From Ignavibacteriales bacterium (lineage in GTDB: Bacteria > Bacteroidota > Ignavibacteria > UBA10030 > SZUA-254): DNA of 64,000 nucleotides. The notes under the pieces are model-generated. The model saw only the letters and a program-made list of their open reading frames with translations. It had not been told where the DNA came from and searched no databases. Shown in pieces: positions 12,009 through 34,096 of the stretch. Both the position numbers and the translations under genes were made by a program. Positions within the stretch are counted from its first letter, which is position 1. Each line of letters starts with the position of its first letter. The DNA lies in assembly GCA_016214905.1 (NCBI GenBank), contig JACRMQ010000008.1:1-64000 (forward strand), in the 5' to 3' direction.

Positions 12009-12052
12009 GTTTTTATTATCACGGATTTCTTCTGAATAAAATGGAGATCATA

Positions 12053-13201: not shown

Positions 13202-13219
13202 CCATTCAGGGAAAAAATT

Positions 13220-14878: not shown

Positions 14879-16444
14879 TTATTTCATGAATAACATTTTC
14901 TTCGTCTGCGTGAATGAACCTGCCTCAAATTTGTATATGTACACGCCGGATGGTACCACCGAACCGAAATCATTGCTACCATTCCACGCGATTTCATATT
15001 TCCCCGGTTTAAATGTTCCGTTCATCAATGTTGCAATACGGTTTCCAAGAATATCATAAATAATCAAACTCGCATTGCCGCTTCTGGGCAGATCGACAAT
15101 TATTTTAGTTGTCGGATTAAACGGATTCGGATAATTTTGCGCTAATTCGAATTTCGAGGGGATACCGTCATCAATAATCTTGACAGCGTTTGAAGGCGTA
15201 AAGTTGGCTATTGCCGATTCGAGTAAACCTTGAGCGTACTGAGTGTTGTGTATACCGCGACTGAGATCGCTCATAACGAAATCATAATTAAATTTCGCCC
15301 GTTTAAACTCATCTGTCGTGGAATCAGCCGGTGAAGCTGCGGCGAGCTTAAGCGATAGTACATTTGCAATGCTGTCGATCATCGTTTGAACTCCGCGATA
15401 ATCGAATGTTGTCGCTAATGTATCAAAATCGCTATGGCAGCCGACGCATGATTTTCCGCTTGGTTCAAAAGTATGACCAGTTTTAGCCGGTTCTGACGGA
15501 CCGTTATACGGTGCTGAAAACATATGGCATGTTATACATTTGTCGGTGATTACGTCCTTATGTGGAGAGCTCTGATAATTATATCCCGCATACTCGTAGC
15601 CGCCTTTTGCTTCGAACATATACGAAGCAGTGTTATGAACTTCATTCCCCGGTGTTGGATTTGCCGGGTCGTACTCGGGATTATGACATTTCTGACATAA
15701 CTGATCTTTAGCAATTCTCAACTGTTTATCGATCGCTTTTGAATGCGGATCATGACATGCGACGCACGAAAGAGGTACTGCGGCATTACCCGGAGGACTT
15801 GTCACATGAGGCACTAAATTTATGGTATCCTTTATAAATTCCATAAATCCCTGGTAGGTATGACAACCGGAACAACTTGAATCGCTACGAAACATGTTGG
15901 TTAGAAAAGGTGAGGCATTCGTATCAGAAAAAGCATGCTTCGAAATCTGCCACTCGGGATATGTTGGTTGCTGATCACGTTTATGGCAACCACCGCAGAG
16001 TTCAGCATTTGGATTTTGGAGTGAACCTTTTATTGGTCCGGTAGCAGGATGATTAGCCGGTGCTGTGGAGCCGATTTGTACGGGTCCATGACAATTTTCG
16101 CATTGTACATTTATTTTCTTCGCGAACTCAGTTGTATTGGCTACTGTAAACGTTCCATCCAGATTGTTAGTGATATAATCATCGGCGCCTTTATTCGCTT
16201 TTGTCGTATCCCAACCGGTTAGATGGCATGGCGCGCAATCGATTTGGTTCTTGACGGATGGTAGCGAATCGTACCCTATCGAATGTAAAGTTTGCGCCCA
16301 TTGAGTGTACTGTATTCTGCCGGCACCTGCATTGCTATGACATGATTTACAGGAGTTAACACCCGAATAATTTTGTGCGAAGGCGGATTGTGAAATTAAA
16401 ATTATGAACGCCGCTAAACTCAAAATAATTTTGGTAATTTTCAT
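14879..16444 (-). CDS. Nonaheme c-type cytochrome with T9SS sorting tail
   Basis: A 521-residue exported protein. Signal peptide 1-23 (ending QSAFAQ). Nine CXXCH heme motifs can be counted between residues 32 and 345: CKSCH, CAPCH, CENCH, CGGCH, CSGCH, CVACH, CQKCH, CITCH and CVGCH. The last 85 residues are a type A T9SS sorting domain, opening with FELAQNYPNPFNPTT and ending GSFTQTKKMLFMK, so the cytochrome should be moved across the outer membrane and anchored on the cell surface. Family knowledge: such multiheme proteins carry electrons, often to external acceptors. A strong sigma-54 promoter lies 129 nt upstream. It is a separate transcription unit from the larger paralogue at 16844-19582, with which it shares heme spacing and tail. 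Confidence 0.93.
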   Translation of the reverse strand: MKITKIILSLAAFIILISQSAFAQNYSGVNSCKSCHSNAGAGRIQYTQWAQTLHSIGYDSLPSVKNQIDCAPCHLTGWDTTKANKGADDYITNNLDGTFTVANTTEFAKKINVQCENCHGPVQIGSTAPANHPATGPIKGSLQNPNAELCGGCHKRDQQPTYPEWQISKHAFSDTNASPFLTNMFRSDSSCSGCHTYQGFMEFIKDTINLVPHVTSPPGNAAVPLSCVACHDPHSKAIDKQLRIAKDQLCQKCHNPEYDPANPTPGNEVHNTASYMFEAKGGYEYAGYNYQSSPHKDVITDKCITCHMFSAPYNGPSEPAKTGHTFEPSGKSCVGCHSDFDTLATTFDYRGVQTMIDSIANVLSLKLAAASPADSTTDEFKRAKFNYDFVMSDLSRGIHNTQYAQGLLESAIANFTPSNAVKIIDDGIPSKFELAQNYPNPFNPTTKIIVDLPRSGNASLIIYDILGNRIATLMNGTFKPGKYEIAWNGSNDFGSVVPSGVYIYKFEAGSFTQTKKMLFMK

Positions 16445-16572
16445 ATCTTTACCTTTCAGTGATTAAATTTGATAACCGTGAATTATTTACCGATAAAAAT
16501 TCCATTACAATTCTCATACAACATACATCGATCTGTTAAATCCAAAATAATGTACAAGGTAATCGGGTAAAT

Positions 16573-16588
16573 TGCAACTGCTATGCCA
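16573..16588 (-). promoter_or_regulatory. Sigma-54 promoter for the nonaheme cytochrome gene
   Basis: On the minus strand the sequence TGGCATAGCAGTTGCA matches the -24/-12 consensus TGGCAC-N5-TTGCA at all but one position, with the invariant GG and GC ten nt apart. The -12 element is 129 nt from the start codon at 16444. Confidence 0.8.
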
Positions 16589-16758
16589 CTAATATATCTT
16601 TGTATTTTTTTTCGGAATGCCGATATTTTAATAAATTTTGAGTGTTTTAAATAAGATGAACCGATATCTGAAGATAAGATTCGGAAAAATGAGTTATATC
16701 ACGCATATTCTATTAAATCTGATCTGATAAAACGATTTTAAATATTCAGATAAAATGA

Positions 16759-16790
16759 AAGAGAGTGGCTTAATGAAAAACCACTCTCTT
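16759..16790 (-). terminator. Intrinsic terminator of the 912-residue cytochrome gene
   Basis: Arms AAGAGAGTGG (16759-16768) and CCACTCTCTT (16781-16790) form a 10-bp stem with a 12-nt loop. Read on the minus strand it is followed by a T-rich stretch (TTTCATTTTATC), 54 nt after the stop codon. Confidence 0.75.
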
Positions 16791-16843
16791 CACCTAATTC
16801 ACATGATCCACCAAGTCACTCGGTGGAAGCGATGTGCTCTATT

Positions 16844-19582
16844 TTACTTCATCAGTATCATCTTACGGGTAAACGATGTTGTACCGGCTTCCATCTTGTA
16901 GAGATAGATACCGCTTGCAACACTCATACCTGCATCGTCTTTTCCGTTCCATGTAACTGATTGATAACCGGCGCTTTGTTCGCCATCGAAGAGCGTCGTT
17001 ACCAGCATACCAAGTGCATTATAAACTGAAATCTTGACATGCTCTGCCTGCGGCAGTTCATAACGGATTTGAGTTGTTGGATTGAACGGGTTCGGATGGT
17101 TTTGCCGTAACGCAAATTCCGTCGGTACTCCGAGTTCATCACCAACACTGGTTACCATTATTGAAACTTCATTGGAATAATTACTTTCGTTACCTGAGAA
17201 ATCGAAAGCTGATACTTTGTAATAGTAGGTCGCACCCACCGTCACCGCGGCATCGGTATACTGAACATCGGCAGTTGTACCTAATGGTGTACCGCTTGGA
17301 ATAAAGTCTGGTGTAGTGCCTCTATACACCGCAAAATATTTGAAATCGGTATCAGTCGGAACACTCATATCTAAACGAACAACACTGCTGCCGCTCTGTG
17401 CCGCAATTGCCGGAGCAAACGGAGCAAGATTATCTATAGAGTAACCGCTCATCGTCGAAGAAGTATAGACCACGTTTGTTGCTGTATAACCAACGACCTC
17501 GAACATGGTAGTCACCAATCCCGATGCCGTTGAATCATATAGCGTTGGTACAACAAGTGAATATATTGTTTGTTTGAGTGCTTTGAACTCACCCACTTTT
17601 GTCCAAACACTGCCGCTCAATAAAACCGCATTACCACCGCCAACTTTTTGCAACATATCTCTGTAAGAGGATGCTGTAACTATGGTTTTACCAAGTGCTA
17701 CTCCGGCTGAATCTTGTCTGAGAACTAAATAGTTCGTAACAGGATCCGGATAATTTTCTGCCGGGAATTTATTCCAGACTATTTGAACTTGTTTGCCCTG
17801 ATCGTTTGGTATATCGGTAATCGAAGCTATTGAGGCAGCTCCGGCTCCCAGCTTTACCATTTCGATTGAAGAACGTAACAATGCCGAGGCATACTCATAA
17901 TTATGAACACCATAGCTACCATCGTTGACAACGAAGAAGTAGTTGTATGCCGCAGCTTTCTGCACAGTCGATAAAAGCGATGATGTATGAGTTAGCGGTT
18001 GAGTAGTATCACCTGTTGTTGCGTGCGGTAATAATACTCTTAACTCTTCCAGTAATGCCTTTATCTTATCTTGGCTTTGTTCAACAAATTCTAACGAGAC
18101 AGTACCGTGACATTCTTTACATCCAACCGGATTGAGTATATCATCAGTAGCATCATCGGGTGTATCATTATCAAATGCAACCCTAAAGGTATGGCCACCA
18201 AGCTTGCCTCTATACTGACTGAATGGAATACCGGGCAATAGAAGTGTATCCGCTCCGGCAATTGTTGCCATATGACACTCTACGCATGTACCCGAAATGC
18301 TTGAGTGGGATGAATTACGATATTGATAACCTGGGAATTGCAATCCGCCCCACGTACCAATTCCGCTCGTTCCTAAAGTAAACGGTGTACCATTAACACC
18401 AGCAATCATTGGACCCTGTAGTGAATAATGTAAACCGCGCCCACTGATTCGAGTCTTATGACATCCATCGCAAGCATCGTCAAGAGAAGCAACTCTCAAC
18501 TGTGCAAAATTTGCATCGCTATGAGGATCATGGCAAGCTGTACATGTAACCGATTGTACATCTGGGTACGGCGCACCTGTAACATTATGACCTAAGTTTT
18601 CAGTAACAAAACCCTGAGCAGTATGGCATTGGGCGCAATTTGCGCTGTTCATGTGTTCCTCCTCACCGGGTTCACCTTTCGCTTTTGCATGGGCAGTACT
18701 GCCCCACTCATAATTTTTGATGTGTCCGAATTTTCGACCATGGCATTGACCGCAAACATCTGCAGAGTAACTGACTGCAATTTTATTGTTCGATTTATCG
18801 CCCATGTGCAAACTGCCCGGACCATGACAATTCTCGCACTGTATATTTGAAACGTTTGCAAGTGTTGGGAAATTTGTTTTAATAGAATCCCAAACACCCG
18901 GATGTTGCGGACTTGGAATTGCAAAACCTAATCCTGTTGCAACATCATCCCATCCACCATTGACGGCAGTTCCGAGCGCATCGTAACCAACCGTATGACA
19001 ATAAACACAGTTCCCTGAATAATGGTCACTGCTATCTACATTATATGCGAATATACCTGCGTGTCCGGTTTTTTCCCAATCGGCCATTTTAGAATCATGG
19101 CATCCGAATCCACAAGATGCAGGATCTGTTGCGGGTCCTGTAATATTTCCTACACCAACCCAATAAGCTGAGTTGATGTAAACGGTTGTTGCACCAGTAC
19201 CATGACTTGTAGTTACGGTAAGATCTACTTTATATTCTCCGGTTGTATCCGGGATAAAATATGTTGTTGTATCTGTATGAACGATTGTTGCAAATCCACC
19301 GGGTGGATTTGTCAATGTCCAATCTTCAGTAATTATTGTATCAATCCAACTATTAATAGGATTGGTTCCGGAAGTATATAATGCTAATGCTTCCAACCAA
19401 ACTTTTTGTCCCTTGCCAACATTTGGTAAACCACTTGATAAAGTGTTAAACCTCCCTGCGGCTTTTAGATCGGGTGAAACTCCTTTTACATTTATTCTTA
19501 CAGTCTGGATCTGTCCGTAACACAGACTCCCCATGGCAAGAATAAGAAGAAGTATTAGAACATTTAATGACAAACGTGACAT
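16844..19582 (-). CDS. Large nonaheme-type c cytochrome with FN3-like domain and T9SS sorting tail
   Basis: A 912-residue exported protein. Signal peptide 1-23. An N-terminal beta domain (25-140) precedes eight CXXCH motifs (CVYCH, CENCH, CGQCH, CAQCH, CTACH, CDGCH, CVECH, CKECH) plus one CX3CH (CGFGCH) that lies first in the series and may bind a ninth heme. Residues about 720-810 are fibronectin type III-like (TYYYKVSAFDFSGNESNYSNEV). The final 85 residues are a T9SS type A sorting domain (FALRQNHPNPFNPTTQIRYE...). Expected location: cell surface. It has a perfect ribosome site (AAAGGAG) and a sigma-54 promoter 51 nt upstream of the start. Together with the neighbour at 14879 it forms a pair of surface cytochromes, probable terminal electron donors to outside acceptors; substrate unknown. 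Confidence 0.93.
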   Translation of the reverse strand: MSRLSLNVLILLLILAMGSLCYGQIQTVRINVKGVSPDLKAAGRFNTLSSGLPNVGKGQKVWLEALALYTSGTNPINSWIDTIITEDWTLTNPPGGFATIVHTDTTTYFIPDTTGEYKVDLTVTTSHGTGATTVYINSAYWVGVGNITGPATDPASCGFGCHDSKMADWEKTGHAGIFAYNVDSSDHYSGNCVYCHTVGYDALGTAVNGGWDDVATGLGFAIPSPQHPGVWDSIKTNFPTLANVSNIQCENCHGPGSLHMGDKSNNKIAVSYSADVCGQCHGRKFGHIKNYEWGSTAHAKAKGEPGEEEHMNSANCAQCHTAQGFVTENLGHNVTGAPYPDVQSVTCTACHDPHSDANFAQLRVASLDDACDGCHKTRISGRGLHYSLQGPMIAGVNGTPFTLGTSGIGTWGGLQFPGYQYRNSSHSSISGTCVECHMATIAGADTLLLPGIPFSQYRGKLGGHTFRVAFDNDTPDDATDDILNPVGCKECHGTVSLEFVEQSQDKIKALLEELRVLLPHATTGDTTQPLTHTSSLLSTVQKAAAYNYFFVVNDGSYGVHNYEYASALLRSSIEMVKLGAGAASIASITDIPNDQGKQVQIVWNKFPAENYPDPVTNYLVLRQDSAGVALGKTIVTASSYRDMLQKVGGGNAVLLSGSVWTKVGEFKALKQTIYSLVVPTLYDSTASGLVTTMFEVVGYTATNVVYTSSTMSGYSIDNLAPFAPAIAAQSGSSVVRLDMSVPTDTDFKYFAVYRGTTPDFIPSGTPLGTTADVQYTDAAVTVGATYYYKVSAFDFSGNESNYSNEVSIMVTSVGDELGVPTEFALRQNHPNPFNPTTQIRYELPQAEHVKISVYNALGMLVTTLFDGEQSAGYQSVTWNGKDDAGMSVASGIYLYKMEAGTTSFTRKMILMK

Positions 19583-19736: not shown

Positions 19737-19978
19737 ATTTTAACTCACCATCCAACCCACTCGTAAATAGTCTTGATCAACTCACTTAATTACTCGCTAC
19801 AGACTCGTCTGCAATCAATTTTAAATTGTAGAATTTTCTGTCCGAATTTTTGAGAAATTTTCAATTTATTTTTTTGCTTTATGAAAATCATCATTTCTTA
19901 AATGAATAGAAGATATTTTCATGAAAAATATTCTGGCATACAAATGAAACCTTCATGCTATCAAGAATGGAGAACGGT

Positions 19979-20461
19979 ATGAAGGTAAATCTTAAATATG
20001 GATTTTTTTTAATCCTGGTTAATATGATCTCGCTTAATGCGTTATCTCAAAACCTCGGTTCAATTCGAATTCCATCATCGCAACTCGATTATGAATCTCG
20101 ACATTGTATGAGATGTCACGATGGTTCTCGCGGACAAACGATTGAACTACGACCGGTAAACGCTCCGATTGAATTTGACCGCGGATTATGGATGAGAACA
20201 AAAAATCATTCTATCGGGATGTCGTACTCCGAAACTGAAAATAAAAATCCCCGAGAGTATGTACCGGTAGGTGCATTGAATCCGAACATTAAACTCATCG
20301 ATGGAAAAATTGGGTGCTTGAGCTGCCATGTGGCAAAACCACAGCTGCTTGCATCGTTATCGGTTGAAACAAATTCTGCGGATAATGAATGTGGAGTTGA
20401 TGTCGAAGGAACAACTAAAGCTTTTAAGGGAAACCTTTGTCTCTATTGCCATAGAAAATAA
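19979..20461 (+). CDS. Small triheme c-type cytochrome
   Basis: About 160 residues from ATG 19979, chosen because GGAGA lies eight nt before it and the signal peptide MKVNLKYGFFLILVNMISLNALSQ then begins cleanly; an in-frame ATG at 19955 is less likely. Three heme motifs are seen: CMRCH, CLSCH and CLYCH, the last five residues from the C-terminus. Additional histidines (for example in TKNHSIGM) could serve as distal ligands. Likely periplasmic electron shuttle. It is the only plus-strand gene in the cytochrome island and ends in a strong terminator hairpin. Confidence 0.85.
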   Translation: MKVNLKYGFFLILVNMISLNALSQNLGSIRIPSSQLDYESRHCMRCHDGSRGQTIELRPVNAPIEFDRGLWMRTKNHSIGMSYSETENKNPREYVPVGALNPNIKLIDGKIGCLSCHVAKPQLLASLSVETNSADNECGVDVEGTTKAFKGNLCLYCHRK

Positions 20462-20488: not shown

Positions 20489-20522
20489 AATTCGCCGAGA
20501 AAGTTATCTCTTTCGGCGAATT
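20489..20522 (+). terminator. Terminator of the triheme gene overlapping the facing gene's end
   Basis: Arms AATTCGCCGA (20489-20498) and TCGGCGAATT (20513-20522) make a 10-bp stem, followed on the plus strand by TGTTTTGCTTTCTTTTTT. The right arm lies inside the last codons of the facing minus-strand gene (stop at 20504). Confidence 0.8.
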
Positions 20523-21586
20523 TGTTTTGCTTTCTTTTTTAAAACTTTTGCTTCGTCACTTTTACCGACTTTCTCTAATAATTCTGCCCGAAGCATAGGA
20601 ATTCTGTAATCATATGGTGAAAGTTCTGCGGCTCGGTTCATCTCCTCTTCTGAAACGCTGAGTCTACCCATCATTCCAAACAAATATCCCAAATAACAAT
20701 GCGCAATCGCAATGGTATCGGATTGTTGCAACACTTTTTTTAGAATATCCAATGCTTGCGTGGTATCTCCCTGTTTCGCCGCAATCAATCCCGATAAACT
20801 GAGTGCTTCAATTGAACCCGGAATAATTTTAAGAGCAATTGAAATATTTTTATCTGCTATTTCGATGTTCGATTCCTCAAGCGCAACTTCGGTCAAGAGA
20901 ATCAGTGGTTCTGCAAAACCAGTGTCAATAGAAGCTGCTTCTTGCGCATATTTTTTCGCAGTATCAAGTTCTCCGCGATTGAACTTCATACCTGCCATAT
21001 TATAAAGACGTAGCGCATGTTTGTCGGGTTGACGAGAAAACTTGTGTTGTACAGTCAGATTGCGTTTCCCTTCAAATCGCTCACGGACAAACTCGAACAA
21101 TTGTTCCCTACCCACGATAGTGAAACCAGAAAGATGATAAACAATCTTTCCTTGTTCATCTATAACAAATGTAGTTGGGACTGCAATAACACCATATTGG
21201 CGAAATGTTTTAAGCTGTTCATCGAAAACAATTGGAAATGATATTTTCTTCTTGCTTATTGTTTCGACAATCCGTTGCTTCAACGAGTCGGAAATTGCTT
21301 GTTGCTCTACACATACTCCAACAGCATCCAACACTTGCGTATGATAGCGATTATATAATTCTTCTACCGTATCAATCATTTCAATTGAGTCGTGACCCCA
21401 TGTAGCCCAGAATAAAACGATCGTAAATTTTCCGGTAAACCGTTTCTCGGTTGAAAAAATGTTCCCGTTTATATCCTTCAGACTGAAATCCGGAGCTTGC
21501 GATTGCATCGCTAATTGGGAATAGACCTGTGTTACGGTGATTAAAAGAAATATTAAATATCTCATTTGACTTTTAATAATTACCAT
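20504..21586 (-). CDS. TlpA/redoxin-like exported protein with TPR repeats and no CXXC
   Basis: About 360 residues. The open frame extends to 21613; ATG 21586 (MVIIKSQMRYLIFLL) or ATG 21565 (MRYLIFLL) give better signal peptides, and the choice between them is uncertain. An AhpC/TlpA-type thioredoxin fold follows (PDFSLKDINGNIFS; FTIVLFWATW; cis-Pro in VIAVPTTFVID). At the active-site position, where TlpA has WCXXC, this protein reads WATWGHDS: both cysteines are missing, so it cannot act as a normal disulfide reductase. The C-terminal half is TPR-like (four or so repeats, e.g. EALSLSGLIAAKQGDTTQAL). It lies directly downstream of the 15-heme cytochrome gene, so a scaffolding or chaperone role in cytochrome handling is plausible but unproven. 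Confidence 0.8.
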   Translation of the reverse strand: MVIIKSQMRYLIFLLITVTQVYSQLAMQSQAPDFSLKDINGNIFSTEKRFTGKFTIVLFWATWGHDSIEMIDTVEELYNRYHTQVLDAVGVCVEQQAISDSLKQRIVETISKKKISFPIVFDEQLKTFRQYGVIAVPTTFVIDEQGKIVYHLSGFTIVGREQLFEFVRERFEGKRNLTVQHKFSRQPDKHALRLYNMAGMKFNRGELDTAKKYAQEAASIDTGFAEPLILLTEVALEESNIEIADKNISIALKIIPGSIEALSLSGLIAAKQGDTTQALDILKKVLQQSDTIAIAHCYLGYLFGMMGRLSVSEEEMNRAAELSPYDYRIPMLRAELLEKVGKSDEAKVLKKKAKQIRRKR

Positions 21587-21613
21587 CACCCATTCTTTCA
21601 ACGTGGATAACAA

Positions 21614-22969
21614 TTATTCCTCATCCGTTTTTTCAATAAGGGTCTCGTTTTTATTTCTCTTATAACTAAATGGTGCATGGCATCCCGGAGAACATTTTCC
21701 GCCATTCGGTTCTTTCTCGAACTTGATCGGTAGCATCCACTGGCCGAATGGAACCGCCTCGCGGATGTGTCTGTCATAATTGCTCGCATGAGTTTCATGG
21801 CATGCACGGCAGGTTCGCCCTTTAACTTTTTTGTTGACATGAAGATAATGAAGATTCCTGCTACCATCCCGGAATCCCGTTAATGTCATGGTTGCAGGAT
21901 CTTGTACGAGTGTATTTTGGTGACAGTTGAAACAAAGCTCATATTTCTCCGGAGCAAAGGGTGAATAAAACTCCGGCGGGTATGTTTGAGTTAAGAGGCG
22001 GAAATTTTGCGAGCCATGAACTTCATGGCATCCCGAACAGTCGCGTTCGCGGATTGGACCGTGCCAATTGATATTTTTATCGAACAATGTCTTCATATCC
22101 GAGAGTTTGCTGCCTTTCGCAACCAACTGCTTATCATGACATTTCAGGCAAAGCGTCATCGGTTCTTCTGTAAGTTGTTTTATATGGTTTGCCGTGTGCG
22201 GAGAATGACAAGCCATACACTTTTTTTCTTCATCAAGAGCTAAATGCTTCACCGACATTTTAGTCGTTGAATTTTGAATCGCAGGATGACAAGCAAAGCA
22301 TTGATCCGGAGGGTTTGAACTTAATAAAAATTTTGCATCAGCACTGTGTGGATTATGGCACTTAGCGCAATTTTCACGTGCAGGTTTATGCATATTTTTT
22401 GCTGCCGCGAATGATTCCTGAAAATCTGTGTGACATTGAAAACAAAGCTCGTTAGTCTCTTTCGAAAGCAATTTCGATTTCTCGCTCATGTGCGGAAGAT
22501 GACACGATAAACATTCACCTTCTGCTGCCGGTCCATGTGTGAATTTTTTAGTCATAAGATTTTTGGGGTGACACGAAAAACAGAGATCACTTGTTGAAGA
22601 TTTCCTTAATTGAAATTGTCTATCCGACTGGTGAGGGTCATGGCACTTCGTGCATTCTCCTTTCGCAACAGGCAAATGTAGGTTTCCTTTTTTCTCCATC
22701 GGTTCGTGACATTTATTGCATGTCTCTTCTGAATTTTTTATCGGAACAAATTTATGTTTTTCATCTTTTACAAGTTGATGGCAGGTAATACATTCACCAA
22801 CCGCAGCAGGGCCGTGCACAAATTTTGCCTTGCCAATACCGCTATGACACTTTGCCGTGACGCAAGATTCTTTTGGTTTTTCCTGGGCAAATCCTGTATT
22901 GCCTAATTTCAATGAAAGAATTAAAAAAGACACAATAATTATACAAATTATACGTTTCATATCAAGCAC
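21614..22969 (-). CDS. Multiheme c cytochrome (13 CXXCH plus two variant sites) of the doubled-CXXCH type
   Basis: A 451-residue exported protein with signal peptide (about 1-28). Thirteen CXXCH motifs occur at regular 15-35 residue spacing: CITCH, CNKCH, CTKCH, CFSCH, CLSCH, CFQCH, CAKCH, CFACH, CMACH, CLKCH, CSGCH, CFNCH, CRACH. In addition, CVTAKCH (CX4CH) near the N-terminus and CSPGCH (CX3CH) near the C-terminus look like two more heme sites, giving up to 15. The repeated pattern CHxPH / GPAAxGxCxxCH is that of the doubled-CXXCH (DmsE/MtrA-like periplasmic) family. Such proteins act as heme wires through or near the outer membrane. Overlapping context: the redoxin-TPR gene follows on the same strand. 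A weak TGGCAT box lies upstream (22992-23007). Confidence 0.92.
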   Translation of the reverse strand: MLDMKRIICIIIVSFLILSLKLGNTGFAQEKPKESCVTAKCHSGIGKAKFVHGPAAVGECITCHQLVKDEKHKFVPIKNSEETCNKCHEPMEKKGNLHLPVAKGECTKCHDPHQSDRQFQLRKSSTSDLCFSCHPKNLMTKKFTHGPAAEGECLSCHLPHMSEKSKLLSKETNELCFQCHTDFQESFAAAKNMHKPARENCAKCHNPHSADAKFLLSSNPPDQCFACHPAIQNSTTKMSVKHLALDEEKKCMACHSPHTANHIKQLTEEPMTLCLKCHDKQLVAKGSKLSDMKTLFDKNINWHGPIRERDCSGCHEVHGSQNFRLLTQTYPPEFYSPFAPEKYELCFNCHQNTLVQDPATMTLTGFRDGSRNLHYLHVNKKVKGRTCRACHETHASNYDRHIREAVPFGQWMLPIKFEKEPNGGKCSPGCHAPFSYKRNKNETLIEKTDEE

Positions 22970-23032: not shown

Positions 23033-24505
23033 TCATGCAACAACCGGGAAATTAATTCCGATTGAACTTTGATGATGTTTCGTTGAATGGTGATCCCCTT
23101 GCATATACTTTTTCAGGAAAGAATTTTTCATCATCAGTCTGGTGGCAAGCAACAAATAATCTCTTCTAAATACATTCGTATCGGCTGAAAATTGGGGTAC
23201 CTTCCACATATAAAATTGTTTATAACAATTTACGATAGCGTTATTAATCTCATCGAGTGTCATCGTTTTTGGTTTTACAATCGGAGTTATGAGATTATAT
23301 TTTGAATAATCCCATTCTTCGATATAAGGTTTTAAATCTTTATATAAATCAGAGTAGGGCCAAGGTGTGATTGCAAGAAAATGTCCGAAATCGGGATTGT
23401 AGTGTTTAGCAAGCTCTAATGTAGTGGCTATTGATTCCTGCGTTTCATCCGGCATCCCAAGAACGAATGAGCATTCCGATATCATTCCGTTGGCAGCTAT
23501 CAATCTGAGCGTCTCTTGAGATTGTTCGCACTTGATATCTTTCTTAAAAACATCAAGAGATGCCTGGTTGGTAGCTTCAACTCCGACATAAACGTGTAAT
23601 ATGTTTGCTTTGCGGTATTTCCATAAAATCTTTTCATCGCGAAGGATATCTTCAACCCGAGTTTCCATCAAAAGAGACATATCCATATTTTCATGAATCA
23701 ATCTATCCAAAATCTCTTCCCAACGCTCACCGTTTTTTGTTGGATATTCATCCGATACCATCGCCACATTCACGCCGAATTTACTGTTGAGCAACTTAAG
23801 CTCATCAACAAATTTTTCCGCAGTCAATTCGCGATAACTCTTCTCCCAGAATTTTTGCTGTGAGCAGAAAATACAATCGTGCGGACAGCCGCGTGATGAA
23901 TTAATCGTTGCCATCCTCGATTTGGGTAGAACGTAAAATGTATACAAACTGTAATCGAGCAAATCCCAAGCCGGATCAAGCGAGTTTAAATCGGTTACAA
24001 ACGCCTGCGGACGTGTTGCAATAATTTTGTTTTCATCTTTATAAACAATCCCCGAAACCTTACCAAGATCATTGTCCCCATTGAGACAATTTAAAAGCGC
24101 GGGCATGGTTATTTCACCCTCTCCTCTCACAATGAAGTCTATGAACTGCGGAAAAAGCGAGAATAATTCATCGTACTGAAACGATGGATGAACATTCCCG
24201 AGCACGGTAAGAGCCGAAGGTTTTTCTTCTCTTGAAATTTTTAAAACTTCCGTTGCAGCAACGATACTTGCAGTGATAGAAGAAACACCGAGCATGTCGT
24301 ATTCTTTACCGCGAAGATATTCCCGAATCTCTTCGAGCGAATGCTGAAGCGACATGCTGTCGTATATCTCCACATTGTAGCCATGCTTTCTTAATTCACC
24401 CGCGATATATACGAGTCCAAGGGGGGGCCAGAGTCCGGCAGACTCCAGAACTCCCGAATGATACGGCGGTGTTGCGAGTATTATATTTTTAATTTTCTTT
24501 TTCAT
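23033..24505 (-). CDS. B12-binding-type radical SAM protein
   Basis: A 490-residue cytoplasmic enzyme. Residues 5-145 match the cobalamin-binding Rossmann-like domain of class B radical SAM enzymes (VYIAGELRKHGYNVEIYD; LGVSSITAS), although the classic DXHXXG histidine motif is not clear. The radical SAM core has C207-X3-C211-X2-C214 in SRGCPHDCIFC for the 4Fe-4S cluster, followed by the usual TIM-barrel segments. Family members methylate or rearrange unactivated carbons (hopanoids, bacteriochlorophyll, antibiotics); the substrate here is unknown. Its start overlaps the stop of the CcsA gene (TAATG), so it is the last gene of the cytochrome operon and may modify a cofactor, lipid or protein needed there. 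That link is inference. Confidence 0.85.
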   Translation of the reverse strand: MKKKIKNIILATPPYHSGVLESAGLWPPLGLVYIAGELRKHGYNVEIYDSMSLQHSLEEIREYLRGKEYDMLGVSSITASIVAATEVLKISREEKPSALTVLGNVHPSFQYDELFSLFPQFIDFIVRGEGEITMPALLNCLNGDNDLGKVSGIVYKDENKIIATRPQAFVTDLNSLDPAWDLLDYSLYTFYVLPKSRMATINSSRGCPHDCIFCSQQKFWEKSYRELTAEKFVDELKLLNSKFGVNVAMVSDEYPTKNGERWEEILDRLIHENMDMSLLMETRVEDILRDEKILWKYRKANILHVYVGVEATNQASLDVFKKDIKCEQSQETLRLIAANGMISECSFVLGMPDETQESIATTLELAKHYNPDFGHFLAITPWPYSDLYKDLKPYIEEWDYSKYNLITPIVKPKTMTLDEINNAIVNCYKQFYMWKVPQFSADTNVFRRDYLLLATRLMMKNSFLKKYMQGDHHSTKHHQSSIGINFPVVA

Positions 24506-25344
24506 TAAGGGACAAAATATTCAGAGTGTAACGATTTAGCCACGAACGGTAAAATAAAAATTGTGAAGATCGACATCGCGAAACATGTGACGAGGAACAT
24601 TGCCGATTTTTTTCCGCGCAATTTCCAGAAAACACGTAAGTGAGCAAAGATACCATACATCAACCAGGTAATTAACGACCAGGTTTCAATCGGGTCCCAG
24701 CCCCAGTATCGTCCCCAGCTTACATCAGCCCAAATCGACCCGGCAATTATATTTATCGTCCAAAATATAAATCCGAAACCGGCAAACTTGTAACTGTAAT
24801 CGTCGAGGATTTCCAGTGCTGGGAATTTCTGGTATCTAGGTTTCGATTCATTTTTTTCTTTTAGCAGATAGAGAACCGCAGCGCCTAAAGAAATAATGAT
24901 CGAACCCGCGGCGAGTTTCGCAAAACCAACATGGAGAACTAACCAAAAGCTCCGCAAAGATGGGGGCAAGTTCACCATCTGAGGATTCGTGAACAATGCC
25001 ACAGTAACCATAAAGAAAACAACCGGAATCACGAATAATCCTGCTGGTTGAATTTTTTTCCACTTCAAACTAAATGCTAAAAACAATACTACTGTAATCC
25101 ATGCATCGGAGGATAGCACTTCATACCGTGTCATGTATGGACCGTGTCCCTGCTCTATCCATCTTAAAAGAAGTGCAACGGAATGCGGAATCAACCCGAT
25201 TGCAGCAACTGCCAAAGCTTTTTTTATGTAGTTATCATTTTTAAAAACTAAACTGTATGCAAATAGAAATGTCGATACGATGTAGCAAACTACAGCCACC
25301 CAATGTATGATCACTTCATACTTCAACCATACGAGTTCCGACAT
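24505..25344 (-). CDS. ccsA: Cytochrome c assembly protein, CcsA/ResC family
   Basis: A 279-residue inner-membrane protein with about eight hydrophobic helices. The tryptophan-rich heme-handling signature is visible as WGRYWGWDPIETWSLITWLMYG (quoted here in part: WGWDPIETWSLITW), with conserved histidines elsewhere such as HVGFAKLAAG and HLRVFW. Family knowledge: system II cytochrome c biogenesis, in which CcsA with CcsB/ResB exports heme and attaches it to CXXCH. The ResB gene overlaps upstream by about 29 nt, and a good ribosome site (AAGGAG) precedes the start. Its presence inside the multiheme operon supplies dedicated heme-attachment capacity. Confidence 0.92.
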   Translation of the reverse strand: MSELVWLKYEVIIHWVAVVCYIVSTFLFAYSLVFKNDNYIKKALAVAAIGLIPHSVALLLRWIEQGHGPYMTRYEVLSSDAWITVVLFLAFSLKWKKIQPAGLFVIPVVFFMVTVALFTNPQMVNLPPSLRSFWLVLHVGFAKLAAGSIIISLGAAVLYLLKEKNESKPRYQKFPALEILDDYSYKFAGFGFIFWTINIIAGSIWADVSWGRYWGWDPIETWSLITWLMYGIFAHLRVFWKLRGKKSAMFLVTCFAMSIFTIFILPFVAKSLHSEYFVP

Positions 25345-26704
25345 TCAGTACTCCTTCCTCGATATAAAGTGATTCAATTAATTCATTGAACTCGTAATCA
25401 AAAATCGCTTTCTCTCTTCTTGCAACTCCTCCGAACGCAAGCTTCCAATTCTTTCCCACTTGATCAACAGAAATTAAAATCGTACTCGTCGGGAATACAT
25501 AAACCATCACCAAGCCGATTAAAATTAATCCGAAACCGATGAAGGCATAAGGGACAAAAGGATTTTTCGTTACTATCAATCCGCTCCAGAATCGGATGTC
25601 AGAAAATGTCAGATTTGAATTTTCAAGTTTAATCGATTCACCCGGTTTAATGTTGCCCGAAAATTTCTTTTCACCTTGTTTGAATATTTCCATATAAAGT
25701 TCAGGATTCTTTAGTTCAAAAGATTGAATCGCGGGATCGGGAATCAATTTCATGGTCAGAATGTAATCTGTTGTCGGGAAATCGGACGTTCCAAAGTATG
25801 GTTTGCCTAATTTACCGGGGTGGTCAAGCGAAAAATAAGCAGGAATTGTTTGACCATCAATTTCAAGATTCAATCCAATTGTGTAACCAAAAGAAGTTGA
25901 CTGATAAATTTTTACGCCATCAATTTCGTAAGGTTCATTGATAGAAAGTTTGGCGGGAATCGGCGACTCGTTATCTCTGCCGATTAATACGGAGCTTTTT
26001 AAAGATTTTATATCACCGTTGGAATAATATTCGGGTGAGAAATTTTGAAGCGAGACATTTATTGGCAGCGTGAACTCTTTCGCCAGCATACCGTTTTCTG
26101 TGTTTAAGAAATCTGCTTTCACACCGAAGAATGTATCTCTCTCAAGCAGCTGGACAAATCCCCTGTTCTGAAAAAGATATGTGCCCAAACCGGTAATAAT
26201 TATGAGTGTTAAACCTAAATGAAAAACAGTTGTTCCCCATCTGCTGATGGGGTTCTTTCGCATTGAATACAAATTATCGGATTTATAGGACAACACAAAT
26301 CCCTTCTTTTGAATTTTCTCTAAAATTATATCTAATGACTTTTTCTCAGAAATTAGAAAGGCAAAGTAATTTTTAAAATTCCTATCGGTAACAACGGAAT
26401 TCTGCATTCCATCTGATCGCTTAACTGACAAATAAAGATTAAACAACGAATAGACAACAACAACAAGTAACACGGATATCACCACGAAAAATATTTCAGA
26501 AGTGAACACCCCATTAAGATTCAGAGATTCAGCTACATTGGCAAGAGTTCCGTTTGCTTCTTTCCATTGGTTGTACTGCTCTGGTGACGTGGCTGAAATT
26601 TGCGGAATAATCAATCCGATTAAACTCAAAATGCCAATGGAAGATATCAACAACAGAGCGGTTGAACGAGATAGAATAATATGTTGAAATTTTTTATGGA
26701 TCAT
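25316..26704 (-). CDS. resB: Cytochrome c biogenesis protein ResB/CcsB family
   Basis: About 462 residues from ATG 26704, chosen because AGGTGG precedes it and the product MIHKKFQHIILSRSTALLLISS begins with a membrane helix; the open frame reaches 26809 only because it overlaps the preceding cytochrome gene. Three N-terminal helices, a long periplasmic domain (about 180-420, containing the LNFSP/INEPYEIDGVKIYQSTSFGY block typical of ResB) and a last helix (PFVPYAFIGFGLILIGLVMVYVFP) match the family. Role: partner of CcsA in system II heme delivery. It overlaps the end of the cytochrome gene at 26694 and the start of ccsA, indicating tight translational coupling. Confidence 0.9.
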   Translation of the reverse strand: MIHKKFQHIILSRSTALLLISSIGILSLIGLIIPQISATSPEQYNQWKEANGTLANVAESLNLNGVFTSEIFFVVISVLLVVVVYSLFNLYLSVKRSDGMQNSVVTDRNFKNYFAFLISEKKSLDIILEKIQKKGFVLSYKSDNLYSMRKNPISRWGTTVFHLGLTLIIITGLGTYLFQNRGFVQLLERDTFFGVKADFLNTENGMLAKEFTLPINVSLQNFSPEYYSNGDIKSLKSSVLIGRDNESPIPAKLSINEPYEIDGVKIYQSTSFGYTIGLNLEIDGQTIPAYFSLDHPGKLGKPYFGTSDFPTTDYILTMKLIPDPAIQSFELKNPELYMEIFKQGEKKFSGNIKPGESIKLENSNLTFSDIRFWSGLIVTKNPFVPYAFIGFGLILIGLVMVYVFPTSTILISVDQVGKNWKLAFGGVARREKAIFDYEFNELIESLYIEEGVLNVGTRMVEV

Positions 26705-28631
26705 AACCACCTGCGTTTGAATGTGTTGTGCAACCGCTTTGAGTGCTGTAGCAATTTGATTTTGAATATCCGGTGCGACTAGCCGCTTTCTTAAACCCCC
26801 ATATAACATTCACGTTTATAGCACCATCTCTGTATGCGTAAGGAGCAACATCAGAATTATAAGTAATTAACCTGCTTCGTTTAGCGCCATGAGGTACAGC
26901 TATATGGCAACTAACACATGGAATTCCAGTATAAGCTTTTCCGCCAATTGTTACAGAGCGAGAAGCATGTTCTGAGTGAGCATTATTTTGCCAAGTTGTG
27001 CCAACACGTAACGGATGACAACCTACACAGAAAAGATCGGTTGCCCAATTATTAGTGTTACTGTTAATGTCTCGAAGTGTCCACAAATTCGTTCCACCTG
27101 CATTTGTTGGCCAGTACTGAGCATTAGGTAGAGCGGCTGTCCCCCGCAACATAAATTTTCGAACAGAACCATGTGGACCTTGCGGAACAGTAGCAGATGT
27201 AACCTGATCGTTCCCGTGACAATCGGAACAATACATCGTTTGTGTGCCAACGCTGTTCCAAGCAGTAGACATTTGTGATGTTGCGAGTAATTTTGGAGTA
27301 CCTGAACCCGTTTGGTTATTTAATGCGTATTGAACCGGATGAACTGATTTGTTCGCAACATTATATTCCATCGCCTGGTCGGTAATATTTATACCGGATG
27401 GACCAACTATGGTAGTTACACCATTAACAGCGGTTCCAAATGCGTTGTAAGAATGACATCGAAAACATATCTGATTTTCCTGTGTAACCGGATTGGTCGC
27501 TGTAAAAGTTGTCGGTTGGGTCCATATTGCGGCAGTACCTGGAATAACACCCCCAACACCGGTTAAGACATTTGATACGGCATTACTCTTCAATGTATGT
27601 AATCCATCTTTTGCCTGATGACCATTGTGGCAATCGTAACATTCGGCATGCCTGTTAGGAACATTTAAGCTCGTTGAGTTATCAGGATTTTTGTGTTTCG
27701 CGCTGACAGTATTCGTCGGATGTTTATAAGTTTTATTTGCCTGTGTTTGGATATCTTTTGTATTGGCTCCCGGAGTGGTTGAACCATGACAGCTTGTTTG
27801 ATAACAAGTACTTTCCTCGGCAAAATCTAATAAATAAGGTATACCTTGACCGTTGTGCGATTGATGGCAATTTCGGCAAGCCCATTCACCAATTGTAGTA
27901 GCCGTTGATCCCGGTGGCGTATAACTTTGAGTAGAAGTTTTATGAATAGATGTTGCCCAATTTGTTTTATTATGGCAGAAGGTGCAAAGAGCTGCATTAG
28001 CGTTTGAGATTTGTAGAAATTTTCCGTTTGTGTTATGATGCGGTTCATGACATGAAGTGCATTCAACTTTACCGGTGGAGGCATCAGGATCCAATTTTAT
28101 TGGAGTGGCCCATGGCCATGTTCTTGAAACCAACTCCGGATCCTTTGTAGGATCGTATCCGAATCCCACGGGATGATCGTTCGCTAAAGATGTACCCACA
28201 TTCGTTGATTGAACTGCTGGCAATGTTGTTACACCACTCGCCATAGATATACTTCCTGCAGATCCAGATCCGGTGGTATTATAAACTGCACCGATAGCGA
28301 TTGTTCCGTCGTGGCAAGCCAAACATAATTTTGATTTTGTACCCGGTTGCGTTGAGGCCGGATAACTTTTTGAAGTGAGATAGTCGCTACTATATAATGT
28401 ATATGTAGCTGCAGTCGGTTGATGATTCCATAATTGTGAAGTAACTTGTTTACTGTGCGGAGTGTGGCAAAATACGCAAATCTGAGTTTCGCTGGTTGCT
28501 TTAATTGTACCGGTACCTGTTGTGCTTAAATTATGTTTCGAGTTTATAATACTTGTCTGAGAATAGCCTAAACAGAACATCAAGAATGAGGTAGACCCGG
28601 TTAACAGTATTTTTAAAAATTTTAATTTCAC
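26694..28631 (-). CDS. Multiheme c cytochrome (10 CXXCH plus one CX4CH) with an N-terminal tetraheme module
   Basis: A 645-residue exported protein starting at GTG 28631, whose GTGA overlaps the stop of the NHL gene before it. Signal peptide 1-24. Residues 27-235 repeat the tetraheme module of the two small cytochromes in this operon: SKHNLS, CVFCHTPH, CLACHDG, NDHPVGFGY, CTSCHEPHH, CTFCHNK. Beyond this lie CRNCH, CYQTSCH (CX4CH), CYDCH, CFRCH, CSDCH, CVGCH and CVSCH. The extreme C-terminus has a further Cys pair (NCYSTQSGCTTH) that is not a heme motif. Thus it reads as a tetraheme subunit enlarged by seven more heme sites. Probable extracellular or outer-membrane electron carrier; partner NHL protein encoded immediately upstream. 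Confidence 0.92.
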   Translation of the reverse strand: MKLKFLKILLTGSTSFLMFCLGYSQTSIINSKHNLSTTGTGTIKATSETQICVFCHTPHSKQVTSQLWNHQPTAATYTLYSSDYLTSKSYPASTQPGTKSKLCLACHDGTIAIGAVYNTTGSGSAGSISMASGVTTLPAVQSTNVGTSLANDHPVGFGYDPTKDPELVSRTWPWATPIKLDPDASTGKVECTSCHEPHHNTNGKFLQISNANAALCTFCHNKTNWATSIHKTSTQSYTPPGSTATTIGEWACRNCHQSHNGQGIPYLLDFAEESTCYQTSCHGSTTPGANTKDIQTQANKTYKHPTNTVSAKHKNPDNSTSLNVPNRHAECYDCHNGHQAKDGLHTLKSNAVSNVLTGVGGVIPGTAAIWTQPTTFTATNPVTQENQICFRCHSYNAFGTAVNGVTTIVGPSGINITDQAMEYNVANKSVHPVQYALNNQTGSGTPKLLATSQMSTAWNSVGTQTMYCSDCHGNDQVTSATVPQGPHGSVRKFMLRGTAALPNAQYWPTNAGGTNLWTLRDINSNTNNWATDLFCVGCHPLRVGTTWQNNAHSEHASRSVTIGGKAYTGIPCVSCHIAVPHGAKRSRLITYNSDVAPYAYRDGAINVNVIWGFKKAASRTGYSKSNCYSTQSGCTTHSNAGGYDP

Positions 28632-29681: not shown

Positions 29682-30368
29682 TTACTTTACGTGGCATGTA
29701 AAACAGAGTTCGCTGTTGGAATTCGATACCCTTAAAAATGTGGACACACCGGTAACACCATGCGGATCATGACAACTACCGCATTCGAGTGTTGCTGACG
29801 CTGCGGTTGTACCGTAAAGAGTTAACGATCTCGTCGGTGATGTTGCATCGACAGATACTTTTGTACCCGCAACTGTTTCCGTTCTTAAATCAGCATCTGT
29901 TAATCGACTTGTATTGTAAACAAAACCAATCGGGTGATCATTGGTTAGGTTTGTTCCAAGCCCCGTGTACCCTGTTGTATCAATTTTACCTGGAGCTGTA
30001 AAAACCGGAGCTGTTCCGGCACCGCTACCTGGATTATTCACAACGCTTGCCAATGTTATAGTACCATCGTGGCAGCTTAAACAATTTTTCGATACTGCAC
30101 CCGGTTGCGGAACGGTTTGCTCCATAGTCGGACTGGAATAAACCGCATATGATGCAGTAGAGGCAGTCCGATTCCAGAGCAAGCTTGAACTCTGTGTAGA
30201 GTGTGGAGTATGGCAAAAAACGCAAACCTCGGTATAAGTGCTAGACGTGGTTTTCGGACCGGTTGTGGTTGAACCGAATGATAAATCGTGTTTACTGTTT
30301 CTGATCTGTGCAGATCCAACAACTGCAACAACCAAAATCAGTGTTATGATGTTTAGTAAGTATTTCAT
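29682..30368 (-). CDS. Tetraheme c cytochrome (copy B), candidate OmcE-like nanowire subunit
   Basis: A 228-residue exported protein; signal peptide 1-20. Four heme motifs: C49-X2-C52-H53, C96-X2-C99-H100, C196-X2-C199-H200 and C222-X2-C225-H226. Only four other histidines exist, H27 (SKHDLS), H56 (CHTPH), H145 (NDHPIGF) and H203 (CHDPHG), exactly enough to complete four bis-His hemes. The same pattern recurs in the 33431 gene and in the N-terminus of the 26694 gene. Size, heme number and ligand economy resemble OmcE of Geobacter, which polymerises into extracellular filaments; this comparison is from memory and structure is not shown. A perfect ribosome site (AAGGAG) precedes ATG. It follows its NHL partner after 60 nt of ATT-repeat DNA. 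Confidence 0.9.
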   Translation of the reverse strand: MKYLLNIITLILVVAVVGSAQIRNSKHDLSFGSTTTGPKTTSSTYTEVCVFCHTPHSTQSSSLLWNRTASTASYAVYSSPTMEQTVPQPGAVSKNCLSCHDGTITLASVVNNPGSGAGTAPVFTAPGKIDTTGYTGLGTNLTNDHPIGFVYNTSRLTDADLRTETVAGTKVSVDATSPTRSLTLYGTTAASATLECGSCHDPHGVTGVSTFLRVSNSNSELCFTCHVK

Positions 30369-31689: not shown

Positions 31690-33378
31690 TTATAATCCAA
31701 TATTAAAAGGTCTTGCTATGCTGAACCAGATGTCGTGACGGGTATCTATGAACCTGAATTCCTGCAACCGCAACTGAAATGCAAGTGCCCGCCAGCCATA
31801 AACGAATTCGATTGTTTGTTCAAAATATGGTCTTCTATAATATATATCATACGATCGGTTGAGACGATAATTCATTGATAGATCTTGTATAAAGAAACGA
31901 CCACTATTTATATTTGCCATCAGTCCGTATAAATGGCCTGAAATACCGTTTGATATCCAACTTATACTACCTTCAACTGAAATTGTAAAAGGGCTATATA
32001 AGTAGAGAGACATATTCAATTGCTCTCTTAATTTTATCGTTTGATATTTATAAAAAAGCTCGTTTGTATTTGACCGTCGTTCATTGTGAAATTCAACACC
32101 TGTTTGAGAATTTATTTCGTACGGTAATGTTTTACCGAGCGTCATATTCAACATATTATTTATCTCATCTCGCCCAAGATATCCCTTAATCCTGGTCATG
32201 TTAAACGATTGATTAACGTTTATTTGATATCCACCCGATGTAGTTTGAAGACTGTTTGTCAAACCCCCAACGTAAGACCTCTGACCTAAAAGGGAAACTT
32301 GCTTTGCATAACCGAACGATAATCCGTTGGAAAATGTGATGTCGCTGATCGATCTCATATGTTGTATTGTTCCGGTTCCTGTTAAATTATCGGTGCGTTG
32401 TTTGTAACTGCCGTTCTGCTGAAGATAAATATCGTAAGTCGATTGGTTGCCAAACGAAATTGCGTAATTAAAATTTTCATTCTGCAAAAACTGAATAGTT
32501 TGTCCTATACCCAGCGTTGTTGACGATGCTGATTGAGAGCTTGCATTTCGAGTCAATATATTAGTGTTAAGCCTGAATTTCTCGAACAATGTACCGTTAT
32601 AAATACCATTGGCATTTATCATAGATGTATTTTCGAACTTATAATATTCTGAAGTAATATCTGCATGATGATTGGGGGAAAATTCTTTGTTACCGCTCAT
32701 CTGGAACCGGAGGTACCTTAACCTGTTGTTCGTAAAACTTTCGTAATTCTCACTAAGAGACCCGGATAAACTAAACGAACCATCCTGTGTGGATTGAGAC
32801 ATATTAACAATAAGCTCCTGCATAACTTGATTGAACCGGTTCAACGACAGATCCGACCAATGACGGTTTCGTTGATATGCAACGGATGTTGTTGGCAAGA
32901 ATTTTAAACTCATGGTCGACAACTCAATGCGCTGTTGTTGTTGCCGATAGTCATTGAAGCCGACATTAAATTTACTGAATTGTGAAGATGATTTGATTTG
33001 TTGATCTCTGGCAGAAAACGATAGTCGCACCGGCAATCGTTGCAGAGCATTGACATTCAGATCATAGAACCCGATAACGGTTTGCTTGTAAGAACTGTTG
33101 ACTCCGGCAAAAGATGAAGTGTTATAATTTATATTGATGTTGGTGCGGGCATCGAAGGAAAAAATCATGGGGGACAAAATATAACCCGCCGTCCCCAAAA
33201 TAAATTGTGGATTCTTGCGTACCAATTTATAAAAAGCGCCGCCGCTATAAGCATCCTGATATTGATGCTGATACCTCAGTTCACCACCAATTGATGAAAA
33301 CTGACTGACCCCATTATAAATAGATAGCACTAATAAAAGCGCTATAATAAATACTCGCTTCACTTTTCCCCTTGCCAA
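31690..33378 (-). CDS. Predicted outer-membrane beta-barrel protein of the cytochrome operon
   Basis: A 562-residue protein with signal peptide (MARGKVKRVFIIALLLVLSIYNGVSQ). The rest is made of alternating aromatic/polar strands of about ten residues with Asn/Ser/Gly-rich turns, many Tyr and Gln, no cysteine motifs and no soluble domain, as expected for a large outer-membrane barrel of about 20 or more strands. I do not recognise a named family. It is encoded between tetraheme copy A and NHL copy B on the same strand, so it is a candidate for the pore that lets electrons or exported cytochromes cross the outer membrane, similar in role to porin-cytochrome conduits. That role is inferred from context. 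Confidence 0.75.
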   Translation of the reverse strand: MARGKVKRVFIIALLLVLSIYNGVSQFSSIGGELRYQHQYQDAYSGGAFYKLVRKNPQFILGTAGYILSPMIFSFDARTNININYNTSSFAGVNSSYKQTVIGFYDLNVNALQRLPVRLSFSARDQQIKSSSQFSKFNVGFNDYRQQQQRIELSTMSLKFLPTTSVAYQRNRHWSDLSLNRFNQVMQELIVNMSQSTQDGSFSLSGSLSENYESFTNNRLRYLRFQMSGNKEFSPNHHADITSEYYKFENTSMINANGIYNGTLFEKFRLNTNILTRNASSQSASSTTLGIGQTIQFLQNENFNYAISFGNQSTYDIYLQQNGSYKQRTDNLTGTGTIQHMRSISDITFSNGLSFGYAKQVSLLGQRSYVGGLTNSLQTTSGGYQINVNQSFNMTRIKGYLGRDEINNMLNMTLGKTLPYEINSQTGVEFHNERRSNTNELFYKYQTIKLREQLNMSLYLYSPFTISVEGSISWISNGISGHLYGLMANINSGRFFIQDLSMNYRLNRSYDIYYRRPYFEQTIEFVYGWRALAFQLRLQEFRFIDTRHDIWFSIARPFNIGL

Positions 33379-33430: not shown

Positions 33431-34096
33431 TTACTTAATATGACATGAAATACAAAGAACGCCACCATCGCTTGAAACACGAGTCATTTTGCTCGTGCCA
33501 TGCGGGTTGTGGCAGCTACCGCATTGCATCATATCGTTGTAAAGCGGTAAATTGTTTAATGGGGTGGCTTGTAATGCGCCGTCAGCAGTTACTAATGCTG
33601 CGTCGTATACAAAGTTCACCGGATGTGTATGTGATAAACCGGTTCCATATTTGGTTCCACCATGAAGATTGGCTGCATCACCAACTGTCTGGTTTTCTAT
33701 TGCGGTTGTCCATGTGCCACCATAGGGGCGTTTTTCATATGCTGTTGTGGTGAACAACGCACTACCATCGTGGCAGCTCATACACATTGAACTGACATTA
33801 TCCTGACCAGTCGCTAATGCGGTTGGTGTGGCATCCATTGTTGCGCTTGAATAGACACCATATGCGGTTCCTGCTGTCAACGCTTTACGCGACCATAGCG
33901 GTGCTTTGATTCCGGTTGAAGGAACGTGTGGGGTATGACAATATGCGCAAACCTTCTCCGATGCACCCTTGATGGTGTTCGCAGAGGAAGCTGCAAAGTT
34001 GTGCTTACTTGTAGCCATTCCTAATGTTGGTGTTTGACTCATTACGAATGTTGTTGCTACGAGTATCATTACTGCTACAACTAAAAGTTGTTTCAT
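33431..34096 (-). CDS. Tetraheme c cytochrome (copy A), candidate OmcE-like nanowire subunit
   Basis: A 221-residue exported protein; signal peptide 1-20. Heme motifs CAYCH (C50-H54), CMSCH (C105-H109), CGSCH (C192-H196) and CISCH (C215-H219). The distal-ligand histidines follow the same plan as copy B: H32 in SKHNF, H57 in CHTPH, H158 in THPVNF and H199 in CHNPHG; H145 and H156 are extra. A perfect ribosome site (AAGGAG) precedes the ATG, suggesting high expression. It follows NHL lipoprotein copy A and precedes an mRNA hairpin and a beta-barrel gene. Family resemblance and filament formation are inferred, as for copy B. Confidence 0.9.
   Translation of the reverse strand: MKQLLVVAVMILVATTFVMSQTPTLGMATSKHNFAASSANTIKGASEKVCAYCHTPHVPSTGIKAPLWSRKALTAGTAYGVYSSATMDATPTALATGQDNVSSMCMSCHDGSALFTTTAYEKRPYGGTWTTAIENQTVGDAANLHGGTKYGTGLSHTHPVNFVYDAALVTADGALQATPLNNLPLYNDMMQCGSCHNPHGTSKMTRVSSDGGVLCISCHIK

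Follow-up and report, generated by a model that had tools for sequence, protein, structure and literature searches.

The cyt1 and cyt2 Genes

Two adjacent minus-strand open reading frames (ORFs) in contig JACRMQ010000008.1 of an Ignavibacteriales bacterium (assembly GCA_016214905.1), here called cyt1 and cyt2, encode exported multiheme cytochromes. The window analyzed is the whole stretch of 64,000 nucleotides at the start of this contig, and the two genes occupy exactly the interval 14879–19582, for which a preliminary description had proposed surface delivery of two nonaheme-type cytochromes through the type IX secretion system (T9SS). Coordinates of these genes, their domains and their neighbors are collected in Table 1. 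Both proteins start with a Sec signal peptide, recognized by eye on the translations from a charged start, a hydrophobic stretch and a terminal A/G-X-A/G followed by Q. A cysteine lies close to the end of the cyt2 signal peptide without a lipobox, and a lipoprotein assignment for cyt2 was rejected. The first heme site of cyt2 is a CX3CH motif (CGFGCH), at a place where most homologues have CXXCH.

The Heme Core

By profile and predicted fold, the heme core of cyt1 and cyt2 is assigned to the type of OcwA and OmhA, cell-surface Fe(III) reductases of Gram-positive bacteria. A profile, A1, made from the alignment of 19 heme cores had its best matches among solved structures in OcwA (TherJR_2595 of Thermincola potens, 6i5b, E = 1.6e-31), followed by OmhA (Carboxydothermus ferrireducens, 6qvm, E = 9.2e-28). 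In the AlphaFold 2 (AF2) model of cyt1, the heme domain is followed by the three C-terminal helices and a beta-sandwich. When this model was compared with solved structures by VIA-align, OcwA was at the top (Z = 17.6 over 333 residues, root-mean-square deviation 4.2), OmhA had a Z of 16.6, and NrfA and the octaheme nitrite reductases came next, at Z values of 12.4 or less.

OcwA is a cell-surface nonaheme terminal reductase in which six hemes have bis-His ligation, one has His-Met ligation and two are open, and its heme domain ends in a three-helix bundle (PMC6703420). All nine heme sites are invariant in the 19 family members, with cyt2 using its CX3CH motif for heme 1. Conservation extends to six distal-type histidines (in 18–19 of the 19), a further histidine (in 17) and a methionine directly after heme 8 (in 17). 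Six distal histidines and one methionine are the same number as in the ligand set of OcwA, a count taken from sequence and not from a heme-loaded structure. OcwA itself is a terminal reductase of the extracellular type; cyt1 and cyt2 are likened to it by sequence and predicted fold, sharing the nine hemes, the heme core, the three C-terminal helices (predicted for cyt1) and, in number, the conserved positions of distal ligands. It differs from them in its monoderm host, in its lack of a T9SS tail and in sequence (≈26% identity over the aligned part), and cyt2 has additional N-terminal and C-terminal domains. OmhA, an S-layer surface cytochrome, has a related core but differs in its eleven hemes, its Gram-positive host and its S-layer attachment. 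Gavrilov and colleagues placed OcwA in a clade with nonahemes of Gram-negative bacteria; the T9SS is unmentioned in the excerpted text of that paper (PMC7829351).

The C-Terminal Tail and the Secretion Machinery

The type A sorting domains that the preliminary description had read from the motifs NYPNPFNPTT and NHPNPFNPTT were recovered by the T9SS type A model TIGR04183, which has a curated cut-off of 23 bits and scored 36.9 bits (E = 2.7e-9) on cyt1 and 38.9 bits (E = 6.1e-10) on cyt2. In cyt1, QNYPNPFNPTT begins 85 residues before the C-terminus and the last residues are KKMLFMK; cyt2 has QNHPNPFNPTT and ends in RKMILMK. The NxPNPFNP motif and the basic C-terminal end are found at a constant distance from the C-terminus in all homologues from the class. 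According to VIA-align, the beta-sandwich of the cyt1 model matches the C-terminal domain (CTD) region of PorU (6za2, Z = 10.4) as well as PorZ and mirolase, and there is a weak match to the CTD of RgpB. On these grounds of sequence and predicted fold, we regard the tails as real type A domains. They share family and fold with the C-terminal sorting domains of type A cargos such as the gingipain RgpB and of PorU; the known cargos differ in being mainly proteases, glycosidases and adhesins.

The T9SS core genes on whose presence the preliminary description had made its proposal depend were found in the source genome (3.3 Mb, 99.6% complete), which was covered through family searches and stretches of sequence. 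There is a single full SprA (1050 bits), adjoined by the PorX regulator (717 bits), and a single PorU (962 bits), adjoined by PorV (273 bits, cut-off 250). The genome encodes 120 type A tails. Only three of the 25 proteins with at least three CXXCH motifs carry one, a count that covers the genome regions fetched; the tail is therefore not a general feature of the cytochromes of this genome. The third tailed multiheme cytochrome lies outside the island that surrounds cyt1 and cyt2 (L071:5997-8591, 864 aa) and has six CXXCH motifs and one longer motif.

Distribution of Core and Tail

Homologues were collected by searching each protein against 245 genomes of the class and a tail-free heme-core profile against 395 genomes of the phylum. 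A survey of tailed CXXCH proteins, suggested in the preliminary description, returned the tail in each of the 68 distinct class homologues that are complete and have eight or more CXXCH motifs, among the proteins on fetched loci, so that its presence is not due to chance. The arrangement of core plus tail is thus class-wide and not special to this island. Neither this class-wide occurrence nor the OcwA-type core had figured in the preliminary description.

A further profile scan of named genomes, using a closer set of cores, yielded 80 loci from many phyla. In NCBIfam scans, all 32 complete homologues from Ignavibacteriota, Bacteroidota, KSB1, Calditrichota, Fidelibacterota and Glassbacteria had TIGR04183; of the 41 from Verrucomicrobiota, Kiritimatiellota, Acidobacteriota, Chloroflexota, Sumerlaeota and other groups, none did. 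The proteins were first grouped by motif. Two Glassbacteria homologues taken as tail-less were moved to the tailed group after their variant motifs (NSPNPF and NAPNPF) had been read, TIGR04183 being above its cut-off in both. A cyt2 homologue (L166:9884-12742) was also rejected as a tail-less case: its nine-heme core and its tail are in the same frame, split by one in-frame stop that reflects either a sequencing error or a broken gene.

In a set of 50 genomes, SprA scored above its cut-off in all 26 with a tailed homologue and in none of the 24 with an untailed one. The corresponding Fisher value, 8e-15, overstates the match, because the heme-core tree holds only one to four changes: the observed pattern of tail and no tail needs four, and the strongly supported branches force one. 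The tail follows the presence of the T9SS, though across few independent events.

The untailed homologues (L181, L183, L184 and other Verrucomicrobiota loci) have a conserved region of their own, ≈240 residues long, after the last heme. TSP3 repeats occur in 6 of the 41 untailed proteins. The post-heme region is perhaps another surface-attachment module.

The Cytochrome Island

The two genes stand at the end of an island that runs from an octaheme cytochrome through an NHL protein, an OmcE-like tetraheme cytochrome (33431-34096), a 562-aa protein, an NHL/OmcE-like pair and a third NHL protein to a decaheme protein, and continues with ResB, CcsA, a radical SAM protein, a 13-heme cytochrome, a redoxin, a triheme cytochrome, cyt2 and cyt1 (Table 1). 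Its conserved block thereby holds three OmcE-like tetraheme domains (29682-30368, 33431-34096 and the N-terminus of 26694-28631) and three NHL propellers. By alignment over their length, the two OmcE-like tetraheme cytochromes are of the same type as OmcE, a filament cytochrome of Geobacter, and are putative filament cytochromes. On the other side of cyt1, three plus-strand ORFs (291, 386 and 524 aa; window positions 11133-14794) had no Pfam or NCBIfam match.

The low-confidence model of the 562-aa protein had MtrB (6r2q_B) as its top match by VIA-align, at a Z of 16.3 that was tied with unrelated barrels. This predicted barrel belongs to no Pfam family. It is present in 8 of the 15 genomes of its family and absent from the 99 other class genomes sampled, and is therefore family-specific. 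In the solved-structure library, chain A of 6r2q, matched by the 13-heme protein, is labeled “Cystathionine beta-synthase”; the entry in fact holds the Mtr complex, with the multiheme cytochrome MtrA as that chain. Porin-cytochrome clusters have already been described in Ignavibacteria (PMC7399161).

The order of the block is conserved in relatives G102, G154, G223, G592, G596 and G597, as far as their contigs extend. The block is followed by cyt2 in G102 and G154; G597 is without cyt2. In G154 and G597, the slot of cyt1 is taken by a different T9SS-tailed cytochrome of 627 aa with seven hemes (L260:1574-3457 and L261:15342-17225; ≈28% identity), so that the slot beside the island seems exchangeable. 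Such varied tailed neighbors beside a constant block indicate that the conduit and filament genes are stable and the tailed cytochromes variable. In G238 and G069, cyt2 occurs without the block in the stretch read.

Table 1. Positions of cyt1, cyt2, their domains and the neighboring genes in the window.
Feature	Position	Strand	Basis
cyt1, nonaheme OcwA-type cytochrome with T9SS type A tail, 521 aa	14879..16444	-	ORF; 9 CXXCH; TIGR04183 36.9 bits; AF2 model vs. OcwA 6i5b, Z 17.6 (333 residues)
cyt1 Sec signal peptide, residues 1-23, AFA/Q	16376..16444	-	By eye on sequence; model helix 2-23
cyt1 heme core, nine CXXCH, residues 32-337	15434..16351	-	All nine motifs invariant in 19 family members
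cyt1 C-terminal three-helix region, residues 349-414, as in OcwA/NrfA	15203..15400	-	Model helices 349-368, 378-392, 401-414
cyt1 T9SS type A sorting domain	14879..15142	-	TIGR04183; beta-sandwich in model
cyt2, nonaheme cytochrome with T9SS type A tail, 912 aa	16844..19582	-	ORF; 8 CXXCH + CGFGCH; TIGR04183 38.9 bits
cyt2 heme core, residues 157-492	18107..19114	-	Alignment A1
cyt2 T9SS type A sorting domain, from NHPNPFNPTT	16844..17101	-	TIGR04183
Small triheme cytochrome, conserved neighbor	19955..20461	+	3 CXXCH; same place in G154 and G597
Redoxin/TPR protein, conserved neighbor	20504..21613	-	AhpC-TSA + TPR; synteny
13-heme MtrA-like cytochrome, candidate periplasmic conduit part	21614..22969	-	13 CXXCH; MtrA of 6r2q, E 3e-15
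CcsA, System II cytochrome c assembly	24505..25344	-	PF01578 130.6 bits
ResB/CcsB, System II cytochrome c assembly	25316..26809	-	PF05140 138.8 bits
Decaheme protein, OmcE-like N-terminal part	26694..28631	-	10 CXXCH; 7tfs E 3.9e-31, residues 14-222
OmcE-like tetraheme filament cytochrome (putative)	29682..30368	-	OmcE 7tfs E 3.9e-39, nearly whole length
562-aa predicted outer-membrane beta-barrel, candidate conduit porin	31690..33378	-	AF2 all beta, ~28 strands, pLDDT 69, pTM 0.44
Second OmcE-like tetraheme cytochrome	33431..34096	-	7tfs E 1.1e-21
Octaheme cytochrome, start of conserved block	36145..37368	-	8 CXXCH; order conserved in at least 5 relatives

Proposed Mechanism and Alternatives

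From the domains, the tail, the T9SS outer-membrane genes, the conservation, the co-occurrence with SprA and the predicted OcwA-like fold, it is probable that cyt1 and cyt2 are OcwA-type terminal reductases that are loaded with heme in the periplasm and taken outside by the T9SS. We infer their surface location, anchoring, electron partners, substrate and function, as well as the order of heme loading and export, along the following lines. As Gram-negative proteins that belong to, or are closely related to, the surface terminal reductases of the OcwA/OmhA group, they would be brought to the periplasm by their Sec signal peptides. There, nine hemes would be attached, a task that probably falls to the System II pair CcsA/ResB encoded in the island, and the proteins would then fold. 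Export would proceed through the SprA translocon by way of the type A CTD, and PorU would cut off the tail or swap it for a surface anchor, leaving the protein attached or released. Covalent heme attachment in the periplasm and transport of folded proteins by the T9SS are both established. The preliminary description had also placed heme attachment before export; the assembly pair in the island agrees with the attachment step, and the sequence of the two steps belongs to the proposed scheme.

At the surface, the reductases would pass electrons to external acceptors, such as metal oxides and shuttles and possibly nitrite or hydroxylamine. The T9SS is a delivery system for the protein and not for electrons, which must still pass the outer membrane through a conduit. 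The MtrA-like 13-heme protein and the large beta-barrel of the island are candidates for this conduit, with the OmcE-like putative filament cytochromes alongside. The preliminary description had set the T9SS apart from porin-cytochrome conduits as another way to reach external acceptors, which holds for the delivery of the protein but not for the path of the electrons. Its suggestion that both routes are present in one island stands as far as the candidate conduit is concerned; however, it is preferable to see the tailed cytochromes and the conduit as complementing each other within one system rather than as alternatives.

Several points weigh against this interpretation. To our knowledge, export of a protein carrying nine covalently bound hemes, which would have to pass through SprA, is without precedent. 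The NCBIfam models for the GldL/GldM motor had no match in the source genome; they were silent in every control genome as well, so this result does not show that the motor is absent, and it is possible that the motor of the lineage has diverged too far for these models to match. The match between tail and SprA, with its one to four changes, is nearly a phylum-level correlation. The AF2 model of cyt1 is of moderate quality (predicted local distance difference test (pLDDT) 73.6, predicted template modeling score (pTM) 0.67) and was built without hemes, and cyt1 forms a long branch in the heme-core tree. Finally, the tail is scored equally well by the T9SS model and by FlgD_ig (PF13860).

Among the alternatives, the one that survives best, although we consider it rather unlikely, is that the cytochromes are exported by the T9SS but act on or detoxify soluble substrates (nitrite, hydroxylamine or other oxyanions) instead of respiring solid acceptors. 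Their fold is of the NrfA/octaheme reductase type, and OcwA reduces nitrite, slowly, and reacts with hydroxylamine (PMC6703420), as this alternative would have it; on the other hand, the two nearest solved relatives are surface Fe(III) reductases, and the island also holds OmcE-like and MtrA-like cytochromes. It is less probable still that the T9SS-borne cytochromes constitute an electron route independent of a porin-cytochrome conduit, for example as released or anchored proteins fed by soluble shuttles. Several relatives (the L168/L169 loci, G238 and G069) do have a cyt2 homologue with no adjoining barrel and OmcE block, but an exported protein cannot bridge the membrane, and cyt2 or another tailed cytochrome closes the conserved conduit and filament block in G102, G154 and G597. 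That the tail is a generic Ig-like domain of the FlgD_ig type, and that the cytochromes stay in the periplasm, is very improbable: FlgD_ig matches the same stretch and outscores PF18962 on both tails, and PF18962 itself reaches 25.7 on cyt1, just short of its cut-off of 27 (29.1 on cyt2, above it), but TIGR04183 exceeds its cut-off, the motif and basic end keep their set distance from the C-terminus, and the tail occurs exactly where SprA occurs.

Significance

Multiheme cytochromes of another diderm are known to reach the surface after heme loading in the periplasm: OmcA and MtrC of Shewanella oneidensis are sent there by type II secretion. They differ from cyt1 and cyt2 in being lipid-anchored and in their unrelated fold. 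In the open-access literature searched, we found no multiheme c-type cytochrome as a T9SS cargo and no paper on such a pairing of a multiheme cytochrome core with a type A sorting domain, which is no proof of novelty; the combination was likewise not reported in the Melioribacter literature examined. What appears to be new is the presence of a T9SS delivery signal on predicted OcwA-type surface reductases, widespread in SprA-bearing lineages. A wider generalization is possible, if doubtful: the T9SS may be the general delivery route for fully heme-loaded nine-heme reductases of the OcwA type in SprA-bearing phyla (Ignavibacteriota, KSB1, Calditrichota, Fidelibacterota and Glassbacteria); in the family of the window, these reductases would dock on a conduit and an OmcE-like filament, both from the same block of genes.

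If the proposed mechanism is correct, diderms of the FCB group would gain a surface route for large hemoproteins unlike the type II secretion and lipid anchoring of Shewanella. The question would then arise whether the T9SS can export a folded protein with nine covalent hemes, for which the cultivated relatives Melioribacter and Stygiobacter exist. The OcwA reductases of Gram-positive bacteria would be connected with a broad range of Gram-negative bacteria from the subsurface, and the OcwA-type core with a type A tail would serve as a marker to predict extracellular respiration in uncultured genomes.

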